11,500 bases of DNA, from positions 1-11,500 of the forward strand of contig CAKUZC010000023.1 of NCBI GenBank assembly GCA_934718145.1. Direction: 5' to 3'. The notes below the pieces were generated by a model. That model had not been told where the DNA came from and did not search any database. It saw only the letters and a list, made by a program, of their open reading frames with translations. Both the position numbers and the translations under genes were made by a program. This stretch comes from an uncultured Eubacteriales bacterium. GTDB taxonomy: Bacteria; Bacillota; Clostridia; Oscillospirales; Acutalibacteraceae. This document shows, piece after piece, positions 1 to 11,500 of this stretch. Position 1 is the stretch's first letter. Every line of letters begins with the position of its first letter.

Positions 1-1407
1 AAGACAATAAACGCCATGATGCTCGCTTGTTATTATTCCAAAAATGCTGACTTTAAAAAGCTCTTTGATAAACTTGAAATTAGTAAAAGTGAGCCATATT
101 TGGAACACTTAAATAAGCATAACGTGATATTTATTACATGGTGTAATCCTACAAGGGAATATAAAACTTTTGATGAGTATATGGATGGCTTCATTCCTCA
201 ATTAATTTTAGACCTAAAAGAAGAATTTCCAAATGCAAAAATTAATGATAATGATGCACTTGGAAAAATTTTCGAAGATATATATACCCAAACTGGAGAG
301 AGTTTCATATTTATACTTGACGAATGGGACTATATTTTTAATAACAATTTATTCGAACCTGAAGATCGGGAGAAATTTTTGGAATTTTTAAAAAAGCTTC
401 TCAAAGATAAACCTTATGTAGAGCTTGCATACATGACGGGAGTTTTGCCTATTGCTAAGTACTCATCTGGGTCTGCGCTTAATATGTTCAAAGAATATAA
501 TATTCTAAATGATAAAAAATATAATAAATATTTTGGATTTACACTCGATGAAACTAAAGCGTTGTGTGCAAAACAGGATAAAATAACTTTCAAAGAACTA
601 AAAAGTTGGTACGATGGCTACAAAACTTACTCAGGAGATGACATATTTAATCCTAGGTCTGTGGCCTATGCCCTTAGTGATGGCATTTGTCAAAGCTACT
701 GGACTAACACGGGACCTATGGATGAGATTAGTTATTACATTGAAAATAATGTGGAAGAAGTAAGAAACGATATAGTCCAGATGGTATCGGGAATACCTGT
801 TAATATTCATTTAGAAGGATATAGCGCAGAGCAAATAAATTTAAATACTCGTGATGAGATACTCTCTGCCATGACTGTTTACGGCTTTTTAAGCTACCAC
901 GATGAAACTCTCACTATTCCTAATAAAGAGCTCCGAATGAAATTTGATTATGCCCTTAAAAATCATCAAATGGGCGAAATTTCTAAATTAGTTTTAAAGT
1001 CTAATCAAATGCTTGAAGCAACACTCCGCAAGGACACAGACACAATGGAAAAACTTATTCAAGAAGCGCATGATATCAATATCCCGATTATAAAGTATAA
1101 TGATGAAAATTCGCTCGCTTGCATAGTTACCCTTGTTTACTTAAGCGCAAGAACAAAATATAAAATTGTGCGTGAAATGCCCGCAGGAATAGGATTTGCA
1201 GACTTCATTTTCTATCCAAACGATAAAAGCAAACCAGCGTTTATCATCGAACTAAAAAAAGACTCCACTCCCGAAGAAGCTTTAAAACAAATTAAAGAAA
1301 AACGCTATCCTTTAGCACTCAAAGATTATACGGGGCAAAAGCTGGCTGTTGGAATTACTTACGATTGCAAACAAAAACAACATCATATTAAAATCGAGGA
1401 AATTTAA
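1..1407 (+). CDS. AAA-ATPase-like / PD-(D/E)XK nuclease family protein, 5' end outside the window
   Basis: The reading frame is open from base 1. The five codons before the first ATG (position 16) read KTINA, which fits the end of a Walker A loop (GKT), so the true start lies upstream. Counting from that ATG, a Walker B stretch FIFILDEWD is at 97-105, followed by TGVLPI (141-146), WYDGY (198-202) and NPRSV (213-217), all typical of the AAA-ATPase-like family PF09820. The C-terminus carries the PDDEXK_9 nuclease-like domain: E387, GIGFAD ending at D396, and IIELKK with E412 and K414. The catalytic set looks intact. These proteins form large paralogous families in anaerobic Firmicutes, Fusobacteria and Bacteroidetes; their biological role is unproven. 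The gene ends at its own terminator and is convergent with its neighbour. Family assignment is secure, function is not. Confidence 0.9.
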   Translation, partial: KTINAMMLACYYSKNADFKKLFDKLEISKSEPYLEHLNKHNVIFITWCNPTREYKTFDEYMDGFIPQLILDLKEEFPNAKINDNDALGKIFEDIYTQTGESFIFILDEWDYIFNNNLFEPEDREKFLEFLKKLLKDKPYVELAYMTGVLPIAKYSSGSALNMFKEYNILNDKKYNKYFGFTLDETKALCAKQDKITFKELKSWYDGYKTYSGDDIFNPRSVAYALSDGICQSYWTNTGPMDEISYYIENNVEEVRNDIVQMVSGIPVNIHLEGYSAEQINLNTRDEILSAMTVYGFLSYHDETLTIPNKELRMKFDYALKNHQMGEISKLVLKSNQMLEATLRKDTDTMEKLIQEAHDINIPIIKYNDENSLACIVTLVYLSARTKYKIVREMPAGIGFADFIFYPNDKSKPAFIIELKKDSTPEEALKQIKEKRYPLALKDYTGQKLAVGITYDCKQKQHHIKIEEI

Positions 1408-1422
1408 TCTCAATACAAATAC

Positions 1423-1470
1423 AACGGACTATAAAACAGCGTAGAAACTGTAATATAATCCGTTTTTTAT
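1423..1470 (+). terminator. Intrinsic terminator of the AAA-ATPase/nuclease gene
   Basis: The arms 1423-1439 and 1448-1464 form a 17-bp stem with three mismatches (AACGGA pairs with TCCGTT at the base, ACAG with CTGT at the top) around an 8-nt loop. A run of six T (1463-1468) follows at once. It lies 16 bp after the stop codon, between two convergent genes. Confidence 0.75.
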
Positions 1471-1518
1471 TTTATTTTAAAAATTAGAATGTAAGTTCAA
1501 ATTGTATAATTGTTAAAT

Positions 1519-2304
1519 TCAGTCTGAATATCTTATTACATAGATTGAAGAAGAGCTTTTAAACAATACACCACTGTCTAATTTGTCCTGAGAATATTTT
1601 TTTAAAATATCTTGTTTTGCTTTAACCGCATTACCAATTAATATATTATCAACATAAAATTGTACGTCATAAGTCGACGATTGACCATTATTTTTTAATG
1701 CTTTAATTTCAACTGTATGAGATTCACTTTTTGTAAATTTATTAGAATCTGGATTATTAAAATCAATATTCAAATTTTTGCAAACTTTTTTCACTGTTTT
1801 GATAGATGAAATATTTTCATCATATATCTCAAATTCAAAGGATACATTATTATTTGCTTTCCATATAATTGACATTGCCTTAGATATTGCTAAATGTGCA
1901 TATCCATTTCCTCGAAAATTTTTCCCTATCCAGTAAGATACACTTAATCGATTCTCGTTGCTACTTTTTCCAATCAATATCTGACCTACAACATCATTGC
2001 TAGGATTTTTAATGGTCAGACTAAGTTCATTTTCGCTTGTAGTCAAAAGTTCATCAATATCAGCTACCTCTGCTCCATATCCCAAATAACGAGTAAATTC
2101 TTTTCCTTCGCCAATAATCATATTTTTTAATATTTCTTTATCTTTTTCATTTGTTTTTCTAATAACAATATTCTCTGAATCTTTTTCTTCAAAATAACAT
2201 GAATACTCTTCGTATAAAGACAAAGCTCGACAATTTTCAAATTGAAAACTGCTTAAAAGCATTCCACAAAATATAAAAGGAATAATTATATTTTTTATTC
2301 TCAT
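1519..2304 (-). CDS. GNAT-family acetyltransferase with an N-terminal signal peptide
   Basis: The 261-aa product starts with MRIKN, a hydrophobic core (about residues 6-20) and a possible cleavage region near CRA (25-27), so it is probably exported or membrane-anchored. C13 is not in a normal lipobox. A GNAT domain follows from about residue 46. The acetyl-CoA loop of motif A is at 123-136, ending FRGNGYA (R131, G134, A136), and ENISSIKTVKKVC (163-175) matches the RimJ/RimL-type C-terminal part. Residues about 180-261 are an extra tail I do not recognise. The start is supported by AAAGGA 8 bp upstream of the ATG and by a good promoter. GNAT enzymes use cytosolic acetyl-CoA, so a secreted one is odd: the domain may serve another purpose, or the hydrophobic segment may be an anchor facing inward. 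The substrate is unknown. Confidence 0.75.
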   Translation of the reverse strand: MRIKNIIIPFIFCGMLLSSFQFENCRALSLYEEYSCYFEEKDSENIVIRKTNEKDKEILKNMIIGEGKEFTRYLGYGAEVADIDELLTTSENELSLTIKNPSNDVVGQILIGKSSNENRLSVSYWIGKNFRGNGYAHLAISKAMSIIWKANNNVSFEFEIYDENISSIKTVKKVCKNLNIDFNNPDSNKFTKSESHTVEIKALKNNGQSSTYDVQFYVDNILIGNAVKAKQDILKKYSQDKLDSGVLFKSSSSIYVIRYSD

Positions 2305-2338
2305 TTTTGAGTTCCTTTGTTAATATAATCTCAATTTA

Positions 2339-2367
2339 ATTTTAGCATACAACACACTTAAAATCAA
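2339..2367 (-). promoter_or_regulatory. Sigma-A promoter for the exported GNAT gene
   Basis: On the minus strand, a -35 TTGATT (2362-2367) and a -10 TAAAAT (2339-2344) are separated by exactly 17 bp. TGC directly before the -10 forms an extended -10 (TGn). The start codon is about 35 bp downstream, so the gene is probably its own transcription unit. Confidence 0.6.
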
Positions 2368-2385
2368 CATATTTAGAAAACAGTC

Positions 2386-2437
2386 ATAAACAAAAAATAA
2401 ACCTATCTCAAAGCAAAAGCTATGCTTAAAAAATAGG
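2386..2437 (-). terminator. Nested hairpin with T-rich tail, possible terminator
   Basis: The outer arms 2402-2406 and 2433-2437 (CCTAT/ATAGG) enclose inner arms 2411-2415 and 2423-2427 (AAGCA/TGCTT). On the minus strand the structure runs into GTTTATTTTTTG. It would stop transcription coming from the RhuM-Fic side before the GNAT promoter. The stem is interrupted, so this is moderate evidence only. Confidence 0.35.
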
Positions 2438-2771
2438 CTTAAATTATTTTCTTATTTAAATTATAAAAACATATAGTTGATTTCATAAACTATTTTAACT
2501 CCATTTTTCTTACAGGCGGAAAAATTTTAAAACCCTAAAAGCGAACATTTTCCAAATCTACTTGTATTTTTAGCTACCATTTTATTCACAGGGTATTTAT
2601 AAGTCATTTCATCAGTGCACATTTTATTTAAATTTAATAAATTGCAAATTTCTCTTATTACCATAACAATTTTAAATTTATGCTAATTTGCGTTGCACTT
2701 CTTTTTAAAATTTTATACATAAAAAGGCCTCATCCATAAGGAAAGCACCTTGTAATTTTAGGTTTTATTGT
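2438..2771. other. AT-rich gap without a convincing gene
   Basis: About 335 bp separate the two minus-strand transcription units. A 45-codon minus-strand ORF (2527-2664, beginning MVIREICNLLNLNKM) has a coding-like composition but no ribosome binding site, and it may be a remnant of a lost gene. A second scrap (beginning MYKILKRSATQIS) lies just upstream of it in another frame. Near the right end, 2724-2751 can form a weak minus-strand hairpin (AAGG/CCTT with an inner TCC/GGA) followed by TTTTT. That could be a poor terminator for the RhuM-Fic gene. I see no RNA gene or strong repeat here. Confidence 0.4.
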
Positions 2772-4136
2772 TTAAATAAGAAAATTCATTATTAGCTTTA
2801 TAATGGTGTCTTTTTCTGAAGGTTTTGACTCTGCTACCATTATTGTGATTGATACTAAAGCGTAATCATCTATTATCTTTTTACTACCTTCAAATAACAC
2901 TCCATTTTTATCAAGAAAATAAAGGAACAACGCTGCAGCAATTCTTTTATTACCATCAGAAAAAGAGTGATTTTTTGTTATCAGATACAGTAAATTTGCA
3001 GCTTTTTCCTCAAGCGAAGGATAAACCTCTTGACCTCCAAATGTCTGATAAATGGCATTGATACTTGATTTAAAAGAATCGTCTTTTTCATTTCCGAATA
3101 AATCGCTTTCATTTCCAAACTTCATGCTTGAAATCACATTCCTGCATTCATCATAAGTCAGAACATAGGTTGCGATATTCCCACTGGGTTTTTCTATTTT
3201 TTGGTGGTCATAATCATCAAGAAGATCCAGTGCAACTGTATATTTTTCAATCACATCTAAAATTTGCTTGCTATCAAGTGTGCTTTCTGCACGTTTCATA
3301 ATTCGTATTACTTCTCCTAGTTCATTTATACGATTATTATTTACCGCATAGCCTTTTAGTATGTAATCTTTTAAAACTCCATTGGCCCATTTGCGAAATT
3401 CTACTCCTCGCTGTGATTTGACTCTGTATCCAACTGATATTATTACGTCTAAACTATAAAAGGATACAGGTTTATCTGAATTTGCAATGTGCAAAAAATG
3501 CACGTTGCTTTCTTCTTCAATTTCTCCTTCTTTGAAAATGTTCTTTATATGTTTAGTAATTACCGATCTGTCTCTTTCAAACAATTCGGACATCTGATTT
3601 TGAGTCAGCCACACGGTTTCGTTTTCGATATTCACATCCAATTTAACATTGCCATCCTGTGCTTTAAAAATTACTAATTCTGTTTTCTGATTCATGTATC
3701 TTTTTCCTCTAAATCTATAGTTGCACTCATATCTAGTGGTATTCCCTATTTTATTACCAATTTTAATATTAAAACCATACTTTGCATAAAATCCGACAGC
3801 TTCTTCATCTGTTTCTGCATTAAGACTTCTTATATCAAATTTTTCTATAATATAATCTATTAACTTAGAGCCGATACCTAATTTACGGTAGTATTTATTA
3901 ACGGCTATATCAGTGATTTCATAAATTTTATATTGCTTATTTATGTTTTTTATAACAATGAATCCGATAATCTTGTCTTTGTCAAATGCTCCAAATGTAT
4001 AAATATTATCGTTTTCACTGTACATTTTTGTCAATCCACTTAATTTTTCATCTGTGGGATTGTAATGACTATACTTTAAGATTTTAATAAATTCAGCATT
4101 GTTGCAAATATCATCTTTTATGTTTTTAATTTCCAC
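2772..4136 (-). CDS. GNAT-RhuM-Fic fusion protein
   Basis: This 454-aa ORF starts at GTG (4134-4136) with AGGAG 7 bp upstream. Residues 1-145 are a complete GNAT acetyltransferase (motif A YYRKLGIGSKL near 82-92; AVGFYAKYGF near 113-122). Residues 148-454 are a complete RhuM-Fic protein. The RhuM part (about 165-267) contains VWLTQNQMSELF and VIISVGYRVKSQRG. The Fic part has the active loop HSFSDGNKR at 390-398 with catalytic H390. Fic enzymes usually transfer AMP or another nucleotide part to proteins; RhuM proteins occur near defence and mobile genes, with unclear function. M148 starts what would be a normal RhuM gene and has AGAGGA 9 bp upstream inside the ORF, so both a 454-aa fusion and a separate 307-aa RhuM-Fic protein could be made. 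HFL at 213-215 departs from the usual QKM (see findings). Confidence 0.82.
   Translation of the reverse strand: MEIKNIKDDICNNAEFIKILKYSHYNPTDEKLSGLTKMYSENDNIYTFGAFDKDKIIGFIVIKNINKQYKIYEITDIAVNKYYRKLGIGSKLIDYIIEKFDIRSLNAETDEEAVGFYAKYGFNIKIGNKIGNTTRYECNYRFRGKRYMNQKTELVIFKAQDGNVKLDVNIENETVWLTQNQMSELFERDRSVITKHIKNIFKEGEIEEESNVHFLHIANSDKPVSFYSLDVIISVGYRVKSQRGVEFRKWANGVLKDYILKGYAVNNNRINELGEVIRIMKRAESTLDSKQILDVIEKYTVALDLLDDYDHQKIEKPSGNIATYVLTYDECRNVISSMKFGNESDLFGNEKDDSFKSSINAIYQTFGGQEVYPSLEEKAANLLYLITKNHSFSDGNKRIAAALFLYFLDKNGVLFEGSKKIIDDYALVSITIMVAESKPSEKDTIIKLIMNFLI
3693..3710 (-). promoter_or_regulatory. Internal ribosome binding site and ATG of the RhuM-Fic part
   Basis: AGAGGA (3705-3710) lies 9 bp before ATG (3693-3695), which is codon 148 of the long ORF. 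In the fusion frame these bases encode the linker RGKRY. This is the expected arrangement if an independent RhuM gene once began here, and it may still allow separate translation. Confidence 0.6.
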
Positions 4137-4180
4137 TTCTCTTCTCTCCTATCCTAACTATCTTAACCTTAATTCTTACT

Positions 4181-4474
4181 TTATTCAACCCGCTGCTTCT
4201 TTTGATTCATTCTTTTCCAAGAAATTATACCGAAAACTGCAAGCATTACCTGTACAAAATCAAGGAGGCTCCTTCCATATGTGCCGTTACAAAAATCCAA
4301 TGCACACCATAAAATATCTCCGATGAGCCAAATGCAAATTTTTTCTTATTGCGAAGCAACAAGGTTCCCGGGACCCGTAGAAAATCTATGATTTTCGTAA
4401 TGGGTGGTGGTCCTTATATTTAAAATGATTCCCGTCAACGAAATTGCTGTCAAGAACCACGTTATATCTATCAT
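4181..4474 (-). pseudogene. Small membrane protein gene broken in the middle, prophage-linked
   Basis: An ATG (4472-4474) overlaps the terminase stop as TAATG and has GGAGG 8 bp upstream, so this was the next gene of the phage operon. It reads MIDITWFLTAISLTGIILNIR, a normal first transmembrane helix. It then enters non-hydrophobic sequence (TTTHYENHRFSTGP) and stops at TAA (4346-4348). Directly after the stop, in the same frame, hydrophobic coding resumes (ICIWLIGDILWCAL, then FVQVMLAVFGIISW) and ends at TAA 4181-4183. Removing the odd middle would leave a protein of about 75 residues with three membrane helices. It resembles the short PnuC/NMN-transporter-like membrane proteins found in phages; that resemblance is from memory and is weak. 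The middle coincides with the hairpin element at 4361-4415. Only the 42-aa front piece can be translated now. Confidence 0.6.
4350..4415. repeat. GC-rich imperfect palindrome inserted in the membrane protein gene
   Basis: The hairpin spans 4361-4415: AAGG/CCTT at the ends, ACCC (4373-4376) with GGGT (4402-4405), TA/TA, and a perfect GAAAATC (4380-4386) / GATTTTC (4390-4396) around a TAT loop. It contains the CCCGGG palindrome at 4367-4372 and is much more GC-rich than its surroundings. The 5-bp word CTTAT occurs on both sides (4345-4349 and 4413-4417) and could be a target duplication, but joining at those points leaves the reading frame one base off. The boundaries are therefore uncertain. 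It could be a MITE- or REP-like element. No second copy was noticed in the window. Confidence 0.45.
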
Positions 4475-5058
4475 TATTTTTTCCTCCTTGCTGTCAGGAG
4501 TAATTCCATTGCATTGTCCTGTGGTGTGTCTGAAAAATTAGTCGTACAGTTTTGTTTAACTATATCAAAAATTTCGTACCATATGATATTAGCTTGTTTT
4601 TGAAAAGATACACTCATCTGAACAAATGGATTCGCAATCGCTGCTCCTGTGGTTGGGTGCTTTCCTAAAAATCCAAATTTACTTATGGCCTCTTCACATT
4701 GGACATGTCTTGCGAAAGCCTGAGAATAGGATTCGACCAATCTTGGATTTACAAATTGATCACACTTTCTCTTCTTAAGCCACAACCACGTTTCTTTAAA
4801 AATTTTATCTGCTCCGAGTGGTTTTCCGTCTTTTTGTTCGGAATTTAAATAATCACTTGGTTTTGGAATTTTTTCTCCTTCTAAATTTTCATAACTTAAA
4901 AAATCATTATCATCAACCTTAAACAACGTTTCATCTTCTAAATCGACTGGTTCGAAAATTCGTGCTGATCTTCCTGATGCTATTTTATCGGCTAAAGAGT
5001 CCGGCTTATTCCCGGCACGAACCCTTCGACCGCCTCTGTACGTTCCGTCTTTGGACAT
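4474..5058 (-). CDS. P27-family phage terminase small subunit
   Basis: The 194-aa protein is predicted to recognise phage DNA and hand it to the large terminase during packaging. The N-terminus (GTYRGGRRVRAGNKPDSLADKI, about residues 5-26) has the basic start typical of P27 small terminases. The core includes KETWLWLKKRKC (88-99) and the family hallmark at 125-144, including ISKFGFLGKHPTTG, followed by NPFVQMS. AAAGGAG 8 bp before the ATG supports this start, although that places the first 53 bp inside the preceding gene. No large terminase follows: the next gene is the broken membrane protein, and beyond it lie non-phage genes. The protein may thus be a leftover, or it may serve a satellite that uses a helper phage. 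Family assignment is good. Confidence 0.82.
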   Translation of the reverse strand: MSKDGTYRGGRRVRAGNKPDSLADKIASGRSARIFEPVDLEDETLFKVDDNDFLSYENLEGEKIPKPSDYLNSEQKDGKPLGADKIFKETWLWLKKRKCDQFVNPRLVESYSQAFARHVQCEEAISKFGFLGKHPTTGAAIANPFVQMSVSFQKQANIIWYEIFDIVKQNCTTNFSDTPQDNAMELLLTARRKK

Positions 5059-5269
5059 TTTTCATACTCCTTTCTCCGAGACTGCATCCCGACCAGGTTA
5101 TTAAGCTGTTTTTATTTCCATGAAGATCAATATTCAAAAGAGATTTATAGTATTCACTTTTTGGATTTCCGCATTCATACGCTATCCAAATTTCCTCGTT
5201 CATAGAGCTATCTTCTTTAACAAATCGGCAATATTTACATTTTACATAACACTTTTTATTACTGGACAT
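5006..5269 (-). CDS. Small Cys-rich protein, probable zinc-binding phage protein
   Basis: The 87-aa product starts at the ATG at 5267-5269, which has GGAGG (5278-5282) 8 bp upstream; a TTG five codons earlier overlaps that site and is not the start. Cysteines C11 and C14 (CKYC), C33 (ECGNPKSEYY) and C62 (GCSLGER) form a C-x2-C ... C ... C set that could hold one zinc ion. Similar short CKYC ... CGNP ... GCS-type proteins are common between early genes and the terminase in Firmicutes phages; their function is unknown. The last 20 residues (MKNVQRRNVQRRSKGSCRE) are read across the terminase ribosome binding site and start. They look like a run-on past a lost stop after GER rather than a folded part. 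Confidence 0.6.
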   Translation of the reverse strand: MSSNKKCYVKCKYCRFVKEDSSMNEEIWIAYECGNPKSEYYKSLLNIDLHGNKNSLITWSGCSLGERSMKNVQRRNVQRRSKGSCRE

Positions 5270-5286
5270 ACAATTATCCTCCAAAC

Positions 5287-5345
5287 TACAAATTTAAAGA
5301 TCATCTGAATTTTGTAATTTGTATATTGTAACTTTGCAATTTGTA
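5287..5345. repeat. Repeated AATTTGTA words upstream of the Cys-protein gene
   Basis: Two 14-bp copies, TTTTGTAATTTGTA (5310-5323) and CTTTGCAATTTGTA (5332-5345), match at 12 of 14 positions and start 22 bp apart, about two helical turns. An inverted TACAAATT lies at 5287-5294. They fill the gap between the VRR-NUC stop and the next gene. They could be protein binding sites, but AT-rich sequence makes chance matches fairly likely. Confidence 0.3.
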
Positions 5346-5362
5346 TTTTTTATTTTTATCGT

Positions 5363-5653
5363 TTATTTCTCTAGTACCCAACCTTTCAGGATATCTTTTA
5401 CTTCCTGTAAACTTACCACTTTAAACGCCATTCCACCTGCTTCGTTTATTCGTTTAATTGTAATTTTCTGCAACTTTGACAACTTTCCGCTTGGCGTCTT
5501 AACTTCAAATGACACGAATTTTCCCCTGTAACAACAAATTATATCGGGAATACCTGCAGTACTGTATAAACCACCATGCTCTTTGAAAGCAAAACAATCC
5601 CGTTTTGTCTTTAAGTATTTTAATATCTGATTTGTTATTGTCTTTTCTTTCAT
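5363..5653 (-). CDS. VRR-NUC domain nuclease (PD-(D/E)XK fold)
   Basis: The 96-aa product is a stand-alone VRR-NUC domain (PF08774). Key residues are HGG (26-28), GIPD with D37, and FEVK with E50 and K52, giving the D...ExK metal site; LQK near 61-63 follows. Related domains act as structure-specific endonucleases, and single-domain phage versions are thought to resolve branched DNA such as Holliday junctions before packaging. The start is the ATG at 5651-5653 with GGAGG (5662-5666) 8 bp upstream. An in-frame ATG five codons earlier overlaps the ribosome binding site. That site lies inside the first GAGGTTA repeat of the upstream array, so repeat binding or RNA folding could affect translation. 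It lies between the replication genes and the terminase gene, the usual place for this nuclease in clostridial phages. Confidence 0.85.
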   Translation of the reverse strand: MKEKTITNQILKYLKTKRDCFAFKEHGGLYSTAGIPDIICCYRGKFVSFEVKTPSGKLSKLQKITIKRINEAGGMAFKVVSLQEVKDILKGWVLEK

Positions 5654-5658
5654 ACAAT

Positions 5659-5937
5659 TAACCTCCATTAACCTCGGGTAACCTCAATTTTTTAAAAGAG
5701 GTAACTCCCTTAAACCCAACAACAAAGCCAACGTTTATATATAAGTAACCTCTATACCTTTATAATAAATTTATTTGTTATATATAGACTTTTTTAATTA
5801 ATACACTCTTTCAGTAATTATATATTTACTCTAATACGAAGGTGTGTGTGCGGAAAAGTGAGGTTAAGAGGTTACCGTTTTACAAATGGCTAATTTAAAG
5901 GATTTGTCGCATCCGAACTTTTGCTTTTGATAACCTC
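5659..5937. other. GAGGTTA/TAACCTC repeat array flanking an AT-rich core: candidate replication origin or operator
   Basis: TAACCTC occurs on the plus strand at 5659-5665, 5669-5675 and 5679-5685 (exactly 10-bp steps), 5746-5752 and 5931-5937. It occurs inverted (GAGGTTA) at 5860-5866 and 5868-5874, and a near copy GAGGTAA is at 5698-5704. Between the two clusters, about 5753-5835 is almost pure A+T. The non-coding part (5669-5889) lies between the primase-helicase stop and the VRR-NUC gene; the outermost copies enter those flanking units. Repeats on both sides of an AT-rich core, directly downstream of a primase/helicase gene, is the layout of the SaPI-type replication origin. The alternatives are a regulator's operator or an RNA structure. 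In the transcript, GGUAACCUC (from 5868-5876) could pair with GAGGUUACC (from 5677-5685), close to the VRR-NUC ribosome binding site. No DnaA box was recognised. Confidence 0.5.
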
Positions 5938-8772
5938 TTTAACGCAAAAACACTTTTGAACTATGCCATTTATTTTTTTAGAAACTTGCATTTTGGTATG
6001 TCCTTTATAGTCAGTTTGAGTTTCAATAAAACCACGATCCTTAAAACCACGAGTGACTTTTGAATAGTCAAACCCGTTTTCATCTAGAGCTTGGCGCAAA
6101 ATATTAGGTATAATATACACAGCATTTTGCTCTATTTTCCCATAACATGGCGTACTATCTGGAAGAAAGCGATTTTTATTGCTCGTTATCCATCCTGTTA
6201 CAAAATCCCATGCTCTATCGATTGTATCTGACTTTTGTAGTTCCTTGCAGTTTTCTAAAATTTTAATTCCAAGATCCACAGCTTCATTCCATGCATCTTT
6301 TTGATTTTTATCAAATACAGATATCGAAGAATAGTAATCGCCAAGACACACAATAGCCACATTATCAAGATGACTGTTATCACAATTATCTGATTGACAC
6401 TTTTTTATATCTTTACGGAGCATATCAAAATCTGTTCGCGCTTTACCTTTTACTTTAAGTACATCATTAATTAAATATTTAATAAATACTTTTCCGGCAA
6501 ATCCATAATTGTTTTCACTAACTAAGTGAAGTTGATGTGCAGTATCTGTATCATTCACAGGCTTACCATAAAGCTCTAGGACTCTTGTTAAAACACCATC
6601 GTTACTGGATTCTTTACTCATGGGCTGTTCTCCTGATGTTATGATATCATTTCTCCAACTAACTGTTTCCTGAATTCCACCTTCTTTTGAACCTCTGAGC
6701 CTTCCAAATCCATTTCCAAGACTATAAATAATATTTTCAACGGACAGTCGTTTATTGTTTAAAACTTGAAGTTCATCGATTGCAAAAGGTAAATGCTTAA
6801 GAATTCCTGCCATTCTTTCAAGTCCAACACTTGTAGCATTAAAGCTGCCCATAAGTTTTGTCGGATTACCCCAAACACTTATTGCCATCTTGATTGCTGC
6901 TGTTTTTCCCGATTTAGAGTCGTGCCAGATATGAACAAAAAATACACGATGATTCAATATTTCAAGAAGGGGAGAAGCAAAGGAAGTAGCAAGTATAAAC
7001 CTTCCAAATGGATTGTTTTTAAGTTGTGCTGCACTTTTAAGCCAAATGTCGAAACTACCATATCCAATAGTGCTATCAATTATATTTGATGCTTCTTTAT
7101 ATTCCGTTTCAAAAACAATTTGGTCACTTACGTTGTAAGGGAAAAATTCTCTGTCTATCCATCCGATACGAGATATTGACTTTATGAAAGGTATACACTT
7201 ATCATTTGCACTTTCATAGTCAGAGAGATATTTCACTATGTCTGATGCATTGCCCGAAGATACAGGTAGACCGCTATCAGCATACTTAATTATCGAAGTT
7301 CGATTGAACATGTGTGAACGTGGTGCAATGAACGATTTCCAATGATTGTGATTTAAGAATTTTATCTCAACTTTCTGAGTGCCATCATCGATATTCTCAA
7401 ATCTACGAGATATAATTATCGGACACGAACACACCATTACTAATTCATCTGAATTATTATTCTTAAGTATTTTTTGAATCCCATATTTCATAGAAACCTC
7501 CCAACCTTGCGGGATAACTGATCCTAAGGTATCAATCTCATCGAGTTTCAAAACTTTAAAGTTTTGTTTTTCTACAGAGTTCCTATGCGAAGTGCAATTT
7601 GCCATTCGTACGGCTCTTTCAAAGTCCCTTAAATTAACTTTTCCCTTGAGCTTAGTTTTTAATCTAGCGTACTCAGATGGAAGATTAAATTTTGCCCAAG
7701 CGCAAAGTTTCATATTTTGCTCTGACAAAATTTCATCCACATTAATCTCGTTACATGAAAGTAAATCCTTAAAACGCTCCTCAAAACTTGGCAGACCGTA
7801 GACGATCGGAGCTTTGACATGGCAGTTTTTGTTGCAGTCAAAATTAAGGTTTTCCCTGATATATTCGCAAGTATGTGGCTTATTTTCAATTATTGATCGT
7901 TGGATTTTTCTTTCTGTTTCATCAAAATTGTACTTTGGATAACTTTCGCTAAATTTATGTATCGCATTATTACCTCCTTTAAGTGGAGCAAGATTAGTGA
8001 TCATAGCATGCCACAGAGGTTCAGGTAAATTTGATGCATTGTCCACACAGTATTTAATAAATTCACAACTTTCAACTACTTTTTCCACACCATGTGCATT
8101 TTTACTAATGGATGCACCCATATCGTTACAATGTGTATATTGATTAAATTCCTTTAAATTGTACCGTTGCAGACTACTTTTGATAACTTCGCACTTAACA
8201 CCACCTTTCAGTTTGTGATTCACTGACCCTGGAACTCTTAAGATACGAGCAAGATCATAAACATTGTCAATTCTCCAATTAAATTTTTTTGCTTCGCTGT
8301 TGATGTATTTCCCAAATCCTTTAAATGTCGAAACAACATAGCTTCTACCTTTGTCATTCTCAATTTTAAAGGGCTTTTCCAAAAGCCAGTATCCGTGAAT
8401 ACCATTACCTGACTTTACGATTATACTTGGCTGTATTTTTAAATTGTTTAGAAATGTAACAGCATCATTTACTGTTTTCGGCAAGGATTTTTGCGCATGG
8501 GCGTCACCTTTAACATCTATATCAGCATACAAGGTTGTAATGCACGAGATATCTTTTTCGCTTCCCCTAAGGCCATTAGAAAGTATTTTATTCCTAAGTC
8601 CTACTCCGAAAAAAACATTTGTTTTTTGACCCACATTTTCAGCTACATTCGATATTTTTTCGATTTCACTGACCTTAAACCATTTTGTTTTTCTATCGGG
8701 CAGAGAAGTAAGTGTTACAAATCCTTGATTGCAACCTTTGTAAATTTCTTTAAAAAATTCCTTTGCGTTCAT
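5890..8772 (-). CDS. Phage primase-helicase: AEP/RepB-like primase fused to DUF927 helicase
   Basis: The 960-aa protein is the likely replication initiator and helicase of the element. The start is the ATG at 8770-8772 with AAGGA upstream and an ATGA overlap with the small gene before it; an in-frame GTG six codons earlier is less likely. The N-terminal archaeo-eukaryotic-type primase has the metal motif YADID (D84, D86), SGNGIHGYW (121-129) and RIDNVYDLARILRVPGS (167-183). A linker holds cysteines (C302, C313, C317) that may bind zinc. The DUF927 (PF06048) helicase-like domain spans roughly 440-770. Its P-loop HDSKSGKT (617-624) has H in place of the first glycine, and its Walker B is LPFAIDELQ with D666 and E667. 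The last 80 or so residues (from about 880) look like a winged helix and could bind DNA. The repeat array directly downstream is the obvious candidate target. Confidence 0.85.
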   Translation of the reverse strand: MNAKEFFKEIYKGCNQGFVTLTSLPDRKTKWFKVSEIEKISNVAENVGQKTNVFFGVGLRNKILSNGLRGSEKDISCITTLYADIDVKGDAHAQKSLPKTVNDAVTFLNNLKIQPSIIVKSGNGIHGYWLLEKPFKIENDKGRSYVVSTFKGFGKYINSEAKKFNWRIDNVYDLARILRVPGSVNHKLKGGVKCEVIKSSLQRYNLKEFNQYTHCNDMGASISKNAHGVEKVVESCEFIKYCVDNASNLPEPLWHAMITNLAPLKGGNNAIHKFSESYPKYNFDETERKIQRSIIENKPHTCEYIRENLNFDCNKNCHVKAPIVYGLPSFEERFKDLLSCNEINVDEILSEQNMKLCAWAKFNLPSEYARLKTKLKGKVNLRDFERAVRMANCTSHRNSVEKQNFKVLKLDEIDTLGSVIPQGWEVSMKYGIQKILKNNNSDELVMVCSCPIIISRRFENIDDGTQKVEIKFLNHNHWKSFIAPRSHMFNRTSIIKYADSGLPVSSGNASDIVKYLSDYESANDKCIPFIKSISRIGWIDREFFPYNVSDQIVFETEYKEASNIIDSTIGYGSFDIWLKSAAQLKNNPFGRFILATSFASPLLEILNHRVFFVHIWHDSKSGKTAAIKMAISVWGNPTKLMGSFNATSVGLERMAGILKHLPFAIDELQVLNNKRLSVENIIYSLGNGFGRLRGSKEGGIQETVSWRNDIITSGEQPMSKESSNDGVLTRVLELYGKPVNDTDTAHQLHLVSENNYGFAGKVFIKYLINDVLKVKGKARTDFDMLRKDIKKCQSDNCDNSHLDNVAIVCLGDYYSSISVFDKNQKDAWNEAVDLGIKILENCKELQKSDTIDRAWDFVTGWITSNKNRFLPDSTPCYGKIEQNAVYIIPNILRQALDENGFDYSKVTRGFKDRGFIETQTDYKGHTKMQVSKKINGIVQKCFCVKEVIKSKSSDATNPLN

Positions 8773-8927
8773 CGTTTCACTTCCTTGCACTTATTCGCTT
8801 TCTTTTTGCTAAACCTCAAAATGGTATATCTTCGCCTTCTTCGTTTTTCCTTTTTGGTAACATTTTTAATTGCTTCATGTGCCGTTGGATCATCATATCC
8901 TTCAGCATTTTTAAGTCCTAAATCCAT
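8769..8927 (-). CDS. Small basic phage protein (52 aa) between polymerase and primase-helicase
   Basis: The gene starts at the ATG at 8925-8927, 4 bp after the polymerase stop, with GGAGGG 8 bp upstream inside the end of the polymerase gene. Its TGA stop overlaps the primase-helicase ATG as ATGA. This double coupling, the strong ribosome binding site and the lack of any gap support a real gene. The N-terminus, MDLGLKNAEGYDDPTAHEAI, resembles the 'GYxDPTAxEAL' opening I recall from short proteins in clostridial phage replication modules. The rest is very basic (KKEKRRRRR at about 25-33, then FSKKKANKCKEVKR), which suggests nucleic-acid contact or a degenerated C-terminus of a longer relative. 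The function is unknown. On the plus strand a longer open frame crosses this region, but it lacks any supporting signal. Confidence 0.65.
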   Translation of the reverse strand: MDLGLKNAEGYDDPTAHEAIKNVTKKEKRRRRRYTILRFSKKKANKCKEVKR

Positions 8928-8931
8928 AATA

Positions 8932-10854
8932 CTAACCCTCCATTTCTTTAAGAGAACCGAATCGTGTCCCGATTGCAGCCTCTGCTACTAGCGGTATATC
9001 AAATTCTTTAAACGGCTGTGCTTCCATGCAATTTTTTATGAATTCTACAGCCTCATGCAATCTTTCTTTCGGTAGCTCAAACATCAGTTCATCGTGTATT
9101 TGAAGTAAAGGCTTGAGCCATAATCTATCAGGCAAACCACCAAGAATTCTTACTATTGATAACTTTAAAATATCTGCAGCAGTTCCTTGTATTGGTGTAT
9201 TTAAAGCTTGTCTTTCAGCGAAACTCTTCTTATTCCAATTGGACGAAAGAATATGAGGAAGATATCTACGTCTACCGAGATACGTTTCTGTATATCCATT
9301 AAATTTCGCTTTGCTTTTTACTTTACGTTGCCAATTTTCAAGTTCAGGATATCCTTCCTTAAGGTTTTTTATAATCTGATCACACTCTTCAAGTGTTTTA
9401 TTAAGTCCGGCTTTAAATTTAAGGCTTCTGAGCAATCCTTTAGCGAATAGTCCGAAAAATACTCCAAAATTGCACGCCTTTGCAATTGTTCTTCGCTCCT
9501 TATAGTGTGGTGCATTTTTATCCACTGCCTGCTCGAATGGTATCTTGTAAATTACAGATGTTGTCTTTGCATGAATATCCCCACCATTTTTATATGTTTT
9601 CATCATAGTTTCATCTCGACAATAAAACGCTCCCACACGAAGCTCAATTTGAGAAAAATCAAGTGACATCAAAACTTTACTTTTAGGTGCAATAAAAAAA
9701 TTTCTGACTCCGATGGGATCATTATCCTTTCTCGGACAGTTTTGGAGATTTGGATTTCTACTTGCAAACCTTCCTGTTTCAGTTCCAAGAGGAAAAAGGT
9801 CAGGATGTATTCGGTTTGTTGCAGGATTTAAATGTTTAATGTAGCTGTCTATATATGTTGACTTAATTTTGCCCCACTTTCGATATTCTTTAATAATTTC
9901 AAATAGCGGTACATATTCAGGTTTGTTTTCTTTACAGTATGAAGATAAAAGTATAAATGCTTCGTCATCAGCGGCTTCTTTATTTTTTTCTGTTGTCTTT
10001 AAAACAGGGAGGTCTAATCTTCCGTAAAGAAAATTTTTAAATTCCTGAGTTGTGGCATTAGAACCAATGTTTACGTTTCCCGTTAAAATAGCTATATCTT
10101 CTTTAAGCTCACTAAGCATATTCATTGCTTGGCATTGCTTTTCTTTTATTAAATCAATATCCACAAGCAATCCATTGTGTTTCATGAGTCCAACATACAC
10201 AGCAGTCGGAGACTCTATTTCTTCTACTATAAATCTGTGTCGTGGAAGATTTTCATCAAACCATTTATTAAACAAATGATAAAGCCTTAAAGCATAATCA
10301 CTATCTGCACAGGCATATCTGACAGTTTCAAAATTATAAGGATCTAACTCATCAAAGAACTTTCCCTCAGTAACACTTTCAAAGGTAGGTAAATTCTCCT
10401 TCAAAAGCTCTGGAACTAGCTTTTTAAGACCGCTATCCGATAAACTTCTAAATTCTGTATTTGTTTTAAGAGTAAGCTGAGCTGCTGCCATTGTGTCATA
10501 AACCTTGCATCTCATAACTATTCCCAAAGCATAGAAGAACGCACTTTCAAACGCAGCATTATGTATGACTACTGTTTTATTTTTATCAAGTAAAATATTT
10601 TCTGTGATATATAAAAAGACTTTATCAAAGTCTGCATTTTTAAAGTTTTTGTGGCAAAGGGGGATATATATCCCCGTACCATTTTTTACAGATAGACTAA
10701 TTCCAACAATTTGAGATTTATTTGAATCAAGTGATGCTTTCTTATCAGTTCGATACTGCTTCTTGGGTGAAGTTTCTACATCCAATCCGATCAAGTTGTG
10801 CCCACATAAATATTTTGCAATCTCATCCACAGTTTTTACCAGTTTATAGTTCAT
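8932..10854 (-). CDS. Phage family A DNA polymerase with 3'-5' exonuclease domain
   Basis: The 640-aa enzyme is predicted to replicate the element's DNA. It lacks the 5'-3' exonuclease of bacterial Pol I, as is normal for phage versions. Exonuclease domain: Exo I LDVET (D25, E27), Exo II HNAAFE (N99, with E103 where Asp is usual), Exo III YACAD (Y180, D184). Polymerase domain: TETGRFASRNPNLQN (358-372), motif A LDFSQIELR (D399, E404), motif B RRTIAKACNFGVFFG (R455, K459, F463, with F467 where Tyr is usual), motif C QIHDE (H587, D588, E589). All main catalytic carboxylates of the polymerase site are present. The ATG overlaps the upstream stop as ATGA, and GGAGG lies 10 bp upstream. The gene sits between the candidate ssDNA-binding protein and the primase-helicase, so replication proteins are made together. 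Confidence 0.95.
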   Translation of the reverse strand: MNYKLVKTVDEIAKYLCGHNLIGLDVETSPKKQYRTDKKASLDSNKSQIVGISLSVKNGTGIYIPLCHKNFKNADFDKVFLYITENILLDKNKTVVIHNAAFESAFFYALGIVMRCKVYDTMAAAQLTLKTNTEFRSLSDSGLKKLVPELLKENLPTFESVTEGKFFDELDPYNFETVRYACADSDYALRLYHLFNKWFDENLPRHRFIVEEIESPTAVYVGLMKHNGLLVDIDLIKEKQCQAMNMLSELKEDIAILTGNVNIGSNATTQEFKNFLYGRLDLPVLKTTEKNKEAADDEAFILLSSYCKENKPEYVPLFEIIKEYRKWGKIKSTYIDSYIKHLNPATNRIHPDLFPLGTETGRFASRNPNLQNCPRKDNDPIGVRNFFIAPKSKVLMSLDFSQIELRVGAFYCRDETMMKTYKNGGDIHAKTTSVIYKIPFEQAVDKNAPHYKERRTIAKACNFGVFFGLFAKGLLRSLKFKAGLNKTLEECDQIIKNLKEGYPELENWQRKVKSKAKFNGYTETYLGRRRYLPHILSSNWNKKSFAERQALNTPIQGTAADILKLSIVRILGGLPDRLWLKPLLQIHDELMFELPKERLHEAVEFIKNCMEAQPFKEFDIPLVAEAAIGTRFGSLKEMEG

Positions 10855-11500
10855 ATGTCTATATCCTCCTCAAAAACGTCAGCACCTTTTTGAGACTGCG
10901 TTTTTATCTGTGAAATCAATTCCCCCAGTCCATCTTTTTCGGTTTGATCCAAATCCCGTAACACAGAAAAATTTACCTTTGAAAATGATATTCCTGTTTT
11001 ATTAACTGCTTTTTTAAGTGAAAGTTTCGTTACCACACCATCCGACTTTTTACCTGTGGAAAGAAGTCTTTTGATATATTTTGAAAATTCTTGAATTGAG
11101 CTTGCGGGAAGTACCAAAATTACAGGAAATATCTCATTTTCACGGAGAATATAGAGTTTATGCTTATTTTTACACGCTTTGGTACCATTCTCACCACTTC
11201 CAAATTGATTCAATTTGCAATACCTACACTTCCCTCCCGGAGTACCTGATCCATTAACTCCATCAAAGCTACAACAGTCAGGGGGATTATTGTTTCCGTT
11301 ATATCTGTTTTCATAGTAAGTAAACATAGGGTGATGATGCAATATTACTGCAGAAAAATCTTTTGTAAATATAGGTTCATCTGAATTTTCTAGATTGGGA
11401 ATTTCAAAATTGAGTCCACCACCCGATGGAATTTTTATACGATCAAATCCACTATCAAGCCCTGCAAGTTCACAAAGCATATTGTCTTTTAAGTCTATGT
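10851..11500 (-). CDS. Cys-rich phage replication-associated protein with acidic tail, N-terminus outside the window
   Basis: The frame stays open to the right edge: codons IDLKDN precede the first visible Met at 11478-11480, so about 216 residues are visible and the start lies beyond. Counting from that Met, a cysteine cluster spans about 69-108 (CCSF at 69-72, CRYC near 86-89, then KACKN), consistent with a zinc-binding site. A likely beta-rich section follows (KLYILRENEIFPVILVLPAS), then KYIKRLLSTGKK. The protein ends in the acidic tip FEEDIDI, like the partner-binding tail of single-stranded DNA-binding proteins. I recognise it as a family found next to Pol A in Firmicutes prophages, in the slot where another family (DUF2815) is common. 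An ssDNA-binding role is an inference from position and tail, not a motif match. The TGA overlaps the polymerase ATG. Confidence 0.6.
   Translation of the reverse strand, partial: IDLKDNMLCELAGLDSGFDRIKIPSGGGLNFEIPNLENSDEPIFTKDFSAVILHHHPMFTYYENRYNGNNNPPDCCSFDGVNGSGTPGGKCRYCKLNQFGSGENGTKACKNKHKLYILRENEIFPVILVLPASSIQEFSKYIKRLLSTGKKSDGVVTKLSLKKAVNKTGISFSKVNFSVLRDLDQTEKDGLGELISQIKTQSQKGADVFEEDIDI

Follow-up and report, generated by a model that had tools for sequence, protein, structure and literature searches.

Downstream of a gene for a fused primase-helicase, an 11.5-kb stretch of DNA (contig CAKUZC010000023.1 from an uncultured Eubacteriales bacterium, positions 1 to 11,500; the window, meaning the whole stretch analysed) carries a cluster of the 7-bp word GAGGTTA, which raises the question of what this array does and which protein reads it. 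These copies likely form the iterons of a replication origin belonging to a phage, with the adjacent primase-helicase as the predicted initiator that recognizes them; the probability of this reading is put at about 0.88. All seven exact matches in the window, five on the minus strand and two on the plus strand, are confined to positions 5659-5937, and zero exact copies occur elsewhere in it (Table 1). Dinucleotide shuffles of the whole window contained 1.02 matches on average and reached seven in 0 of 200 cases. This mean corresponds to ~0.03 copies expected per 280 bp, so the initial annotation, which had set seven exact copies plus a near copy in 280 bp against that chance expectation, was correct on both figures. 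Read in the direction of the gene (minus strand), the array starts with a copy within the 3' end of the helicase gene, followed by a backward-pointing inner pair (5868, 5860), a 103-nt core, a forward inner copy (5746), a backward near copy (5698) and a forward triple (5679, 5669, 5659) in 10-bp steps that reaches the start of the VRR-NUC gene. The coordinates agree with the annotated 10-bp spacing of three copies and with the inversion of the right-hand pair (5860/5868) relative to the three left copies. The description of the intervening DNA as almost pure A+T was an overstatement, as the core is 78% A+T and holds the G+C-richer box GAAGGTGTGTGTGCGGAAAA.

Relatives were sampled from seven viral contigs, five phages, eight metagenome-assembled genome loci (one cut before the gap) and further loci from genomes that encode the HTH_56 winged-helix domain. 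L020 (cut before the gap), L021-L024 (which repeat other loci) and L025 (no stop) were dropped before counting. A strict identical-word test on the gap 3' of the helicase stop was passed by 38 of 63 HTH_56 loci, the window included. The same type of test was passed by 12 of 215 control segments taken from elsewhere in 20 loci (the window and L001-L019); significance was set at 0 of 100 shuffles for the gaps and 0 of 60 for the control segments, the latter rule being laxer. Exact-word counting misses degenerate arrays (L002-L007, L043, L050, L056), and position matrices were therefore used, with seed words given by hand for nine loci. Inverted inner iterons surround a core in 41 of 45 mapped loci (near-duplicates included), a result favoured by the way the core was defined, namely as the largest interval that separates sites of opposite orientation. 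The inner iterons are separated by a median of 108 bp, and by 88-129 bp in 38 of the 41 loci.

The repeat word varies between genomes and is largely uniform within each one: GAGGTTA in the window, AGGTAACA in L013, TGGTTACT in L016, CGGTTACC in phage THSA-485A, AGGTGAAAC in phage Epona and TGGGAACA in L033. L026, L067, L068 and L028 share the gap layout and some flanks, and their copies have changed together (ACTGGTTACC, AGTGGTTACA, AGGTGTTACA, ACTGGTTAGG). In THSA-485A and in Epona, both of which carry complete-phage annotations, 10/10 copies of the best word (GGTAACCG and GGTGAAA, respectively) lie within this gap; their words in other registers have 1-6 copies outside it. The origin layout is unchanged in phages with other primase arrangements, namely an N-terminal DnaG-type zinc ribbon in THSA-485A and Epona and a separate primase gene in Jekyll.

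Because arrays occupy the same gap in many relatives, with inverted inner iterons ~108 bp apart and an A+T-rich core, the array is most likely an origin of the SaPIbov1 type (Ubeda 2007, 2012, as cited in an excerpt of PMC7581432). As in that type, the iterons are directly downstream of the replication gene around an A+T-rich core, the helicase is of the DUF927 kind found in the SaPIbov1-type module (8tch, matched by phmmer at 6.6e-22) and the C-terminal winged helix has the fold of SaPIbov1 Rep, Cch and TcpK (among the matches listed). The SaPI-type layout proposed initially, with iterons and an A+T-rich core downstream of the replication gene, recurs both in the relatives and in PT1028, a 15.6-kb Staphylococcus aureus element with a DUF927 Rep. 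There the word GGGAACT was found by eye after the gene in the order triple, single, inner pair, A+T core, inner pair, single, and the script located 10 sites, with a core that is 80% A+T. The window locus differs from the SaPIbov1-type system in its setting, a probable phage replication block that has a PolA of its own, in the fusion of primase to helicase and in its iteron word.

The reader of the word was sought in covariation between iterons and protein. Iteron distance tracks winged-helix distance across 35 loci, eight others having been omitted as duplicates or for unsure orientation (L003, L005, L019, L030, L031, L032, L050, L056). Controlling for the DUF927 core leaves a partial correlation of 0.186 (6 of 2000 permutations; 33 loci, L028 and L051 being omitted for truncated helicases). 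A scan in 25-residue segments was best at residues 927-951 (0.36), matched as a maximum by 0 of 2000 permutations, and the best single column of 497 was residue 939 (0.48). Among the discovery loci, the 3' end of the iteron is ACC or ACT where residue 939 is K, ACA where it is R and AG where it is W. This rule was recorded before new loci were fetched, and with a revised scorer 18 of the 21 new loci that could be scored conformed to it (R 8/8, W 5/5, K 5/8), a count matched by 0 of 20000 label shuffles. After removal of rows at least 70% identical the count was 14 of 16, and in the discovery set the revised scorer gave 33 of 36. Near-duplicates (L004, L006, L007, L019) were omitted from the scoring; 20 discovery loci were unscored for having no array of at least four copies or no inverted core of 70-135, and four scored ones had S or F at 939. 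The new set comprised 39 fetched loci (L070-L108), of which 30 were used and 24 scored, 21 with K, R or W and three with Y or H. The six used but unscored were L088-L091 (F, no array) and L092 and L094 (W, in which the scripted core search was empty and AGG was seen by eye). Unused were L073 (98% identical to Epona), L077, L080 and L102 (100% identical to discovery loci), L076, L078, L082 and L093 (cut before the gap) and L079 (19 residues matched).

When discovery and new loci were pooled and residues grouped into classes (60 loci with a class), residue 939 stood 24.9 standard deviations over shuffles and ranked at the top of 119 columns, with the runner-up at 5.6. Phylogenetically independent pairs were drawn from a quick tree built without the last 130 C-terminal residues, from which L028 was omitted as too short. 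R/ACA gave 10 pairs, with 8.9 in the same direction and 0 opposite (p 0.004), K/ACY gave eight pairs with 6.6 in the same direction (median p 0.016, range to 0.125), and W/AG gave five pairs, 3.7 in the same direction, too few for a test. The K939 codon (5974-5976) is clear of the in-gene iteron (5931-5937), so the covariation is not one DNA word counted twice. At the place of that in-gene copy L016 carries its own word (GTGGTTACT) and L014 keeps none. Residue 939 corresponds to residue 140 of the model, where it lies in strand 136-141, the first strand of the wing hairpin, right before the turn. Given the covariation, the array is likely a phage origin, and residue 939 is the predicted means by which the protein recognizes the word.

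The same result bears on who else might use the repeats. The array could be an operator through which a phage repressor or activator controls VRR-NUC and later genes: the outer triple overlaps the VRR-NUC gene start, one copy sits at its expected ribosome-binding site, and in L012 a gene between helicase and array is annotated as a DNA-binding regulator. However, in neither Epona nor THSA-485A does the gene after the array have a VRR-NUC annotation, the number of promoter-like matches around the gap is that of chance (2 against 2.4 expected), and the word changes in concert with a helicase residue, which makes an operator very unlikely. Autoregulation by the same initiator may be a use of the array. 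The iterons could also belong to an origin at which another phage or host protein reads them and loads the helicase, as some HTH_56 helicases come without an array and another factor could bind a further conserved element of the arms (the second element described below); covariation with one residue in the wing domain points instead to direct reading by the helicase, and a separate reader is rated as slightly less probable even than an operator. Least probable of all is a packaging (pac/cos) site. The terminase small-subunit gene (4474-5058) is indeed ~600 bp from the array, but in Epona the terminase genes start at 19643, ~6 kb from the array (13253-13579), which stays by the helicase gene, and again the covariation is with the helicase.

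If the primase-helicase is the initiator, its C-terminal winged helix would grip the iterons mainly by the wing. Such wing-led reading is suggested by analogy with TcpK of plasmid pCW3, which has the same fold and whose wing binds tandem 9-nt boxes in the major groove (excerpt of PMC6137059). The two inverted inner iteron clusters would each be the assembly site of one helicase ring, the ~103-bp A+T-rich stretch between the clusters would melt, and the two rings would move apart in bidirectional unwinding, with the fused AEP domain laying primers that the phage PolA would extend. Residue 939 would set the required base at the iteron 3' end, C or T for K, A for R, and for W a G replacing C. The clade of phage helicases with the HTH_56/Cch winged helix probably reads its own origins by such a wing code, in which K, R or W selects ACC/ACT, ACA or AG. 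Phages and satellites would hence hold mutually incompatible origin-initiator pairs that are predictable from sequence, and initiator and iterons would repeatedly have switched specificity together.

Several results weigh against the array being an origin read by this protein. Conservation of the repeats in relatives with the same type of helicase was upheld by the strict test and the mapped layout in part, as 25 of the 63 HTH_56 loci fail the strict array test. Among them are six close relatives (L002-L007) whose copies are few and degenerate; the arrays of L038, L043, L050 and L056 are weak, and in the remaining failing loci, some of them beside recombinases, inspection by eye revealed no array following the gene. 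In L012 a small gene intervenes between helicase and array. With the first scorer, which misplaced orientation or register in several loci, the count for the new loci was 13 of 23; the scorer was revised after these loci had been seen, and the scoring was not blind. The rule fails at L099 and L100, which combine K with ACA and belong to one clade of unsure alignment, and at L108 (a tie) among the new loci, and at L003, L027 and L037 in the discovery set. Foldseek alone gave no C-terminal match at E 0.001 or better, and the PT1028 Rep has no HTH_56 match at E 0.001 and carries S at the position aligned to 939. Cumulative GC skew, which had been put forward as a check, has no inflection at the array in the window or in the two complete phages and is uninformative.

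The origin type and the protein architecture are already known. DUF927 is the helicase of both Cch and SaPIbov1 Rep (excerpt of PMC7581432), and DUF927 helicases have been likened to these two proteins (excerpt of PMC10061031). AEP-DUF927-winged-helix proteins are likewise known, and origin recognition has been suggested for them (excerpt of PMC5862659); the text on PrimQH there does not contain the word "iteron". PrimQH primases resemble the window protein in domain architecture, both having an AEP fold, an ATPase and a winged helix. The Cch of SCCmec is a homologue of the window helicase and winged helix (5dgk) but lacks the fused AEP primase of the window protein, which scores 93.7 bits with the NCBIfam Cch1 model (NF047345), under the cut-off of 700, and is not a Cch1 by that model. 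Cch2, which belongs to a different helicase family, uses its C-terminal domain to bind iterons located after the cch2 gene itself (excerpt of PMC7581432). The suggestion of a new origin/initiator pair thus stands in part: the pair is not wholly new because DUF927 also serves Cch and SaPIbov1 Rep, and the part for which no description was found is the genome-specific word whose 3' end follows one wing residue. A search of open-access literature, which did not extend to the SaPI origin papers or the name HTH_56, found no account of the origins of this phage group or of a wing-residue code.

If these readings are true, the origins of many phages with DUF927 primase-helicases could be located from sequence, and their DNA specificity would be partly predictable from one initiator residue. 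Candidate origins are supplied for the named phages of anaerobes Epona, Jekyll and THSA-485A. How an initiator and its binding sites change specificity jointly is an open evolutionary question, for which this family offers ~10 independent natural switches.

Table 1 Features of the array and adjacent genes in the window.
Feature	Position	Strand	Remark
VRR-NUC nuclease gene, next in replication block	5363..5653	-	PF08774 and phrog_93
Outer iteron 1	5659..5665	-	exact GAGGTTA; also expected Shine-Dalgarno position of VRR-NUC
Outer iteron 2	5669..5675	-	exact GAGGTTA
Outer iteron 3	5679..5685	-	exact GAGGTTA
Near-copy iteron GAGGTAAC	5698..5705	+	inverted single copy; same-place counterpart in several close relatives
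TTGGCTTTGTTGTTGGGTTTAAGGG, with GGCTTT and GGGTTT of the second, iteron-independent element between inner and outer iterons	5707..5731	-	
Inner iteron, VRR-NUC side of core	5746..5752	-	exact GAGGTTA; layout mapping
Core between inner inverted iterons	5755..5857	.	103 nt, 78% A+T; predicted unwinding region
Box GAAGGTGTGTGTGCGGAAAA at core edge	5838..5857	+	G+C-richer than core; largely conserved in close relatives
Inner iteron, helicase-gene side of core	5860..5866	+	exact GAGGTTA
Inner iteron, helicase-gene side of core	5868..5874	+	exact GAGGTTA
Primase-helicase, predicted self-loading initiator	5890..8790	-	966 amino acids; AEP primase fold, DUF927 helicase, C-terminal winged helix
Iteron copy within 3' end of primase-helicase gene	5931..5937	-	exact GAGGTTA
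HTH_56 (Cch) winged-helix domain, residues 855-951, predicted iteron reader	5938..6228	-	
Codon of K939, wing residue covarying with iteron 3' end	5974..5976	-	overlaps no iteron copy
DUF927 AAA+ helicase, residues 435-708	6667..7488	-	Pfam PF06048, E 6.3e-49
AEP primase region, residues 7-340	7771..8772	-	alignment, AlphaFold2 model, Foldseek

The AEP region contains the conserved stretches LYADID, SGNGxHxYW and RxPGxxNHK in the alignment, which we take to be AEP motifs. Its AlphaFold2 model has a mean predicted local distance difference test score of 78.7, and the top Foldseek match is the S-2L PrimPol (6zp9, E 5.7e-8). A PDB sequence search with the AEP alignment returned no primase and a single match at E 0.039, whereas the fold search did find a primase. 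The VRR-NUC product matches PF08774 at E 1.4e-4 (22.3 bits, slightly below the cut-off of 23.8) and the phrog_93 endonuclease at E 1.4e-23. PolA and the terminase small subunit are both present in the window, and among six viral contigs of close relatives a large terminase is carried by 6/6 and a portal gene by 5/6. Scans for promoters, terminators, Rfam families and tRNAs yielded nothing above chance.

The second element lies outside the inner iterons. GG[CG]TTT and AAA[CG]CC recur between inner and outer iterons, each in 22 of 59 loci (five near-duplicates omitted). Of the 30 occurrences of GG[CG]TTT, 28 fall 30-59 nt away from the inner iteron, against a shuffle mean of 2.4 and a maximum of 7; of the 29 occurrences of AAA[CG]CC, 23 fall at 20-39 nt, against a mean of 2.9 and a maximum of 9. 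These distance bands were set after the positions had been seen, and the shuffles preserve base content only. At the core edge, GAAGGTGTGTGTGCGGAAAA is a CACACACC-type box, and GGTGTGTGT boxes were seen by eye in Epona and L002. L035 encodes an HTH_56 fragment and has a GTGGGTACA array upstream instead of downstream.

TcpK is a conjugation protein that acts at oriT and has no helicase, unlike the window protein, with which it has the winged-helix fold in common; it may share ancestry with the DNA-reading domain of the initiator. Its oriT box GGAACTTTA, with a 12-bp period (excerpt of PMC6137059), resembles the GGGAACT iterons of L043 and PT1028. Elsewhere in the window, the 454-amino-acid frame at 2772-4136 (minus strand) combines a GNAT acetyltransferase with a RhuM-Fic protein, either as a fusion or as two genes with no intervening stop. 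An 87-amino-acid cysteine-rich frame at 5006-5269 (minus strand), between VRR-NUC and the terminase gene, has no match in Pfam, PHROGs or NCBIfam. Among 14 control genomes the sole HTH_56 match is in Methanosarcina acetivorans, and the family thus reaches archaea.
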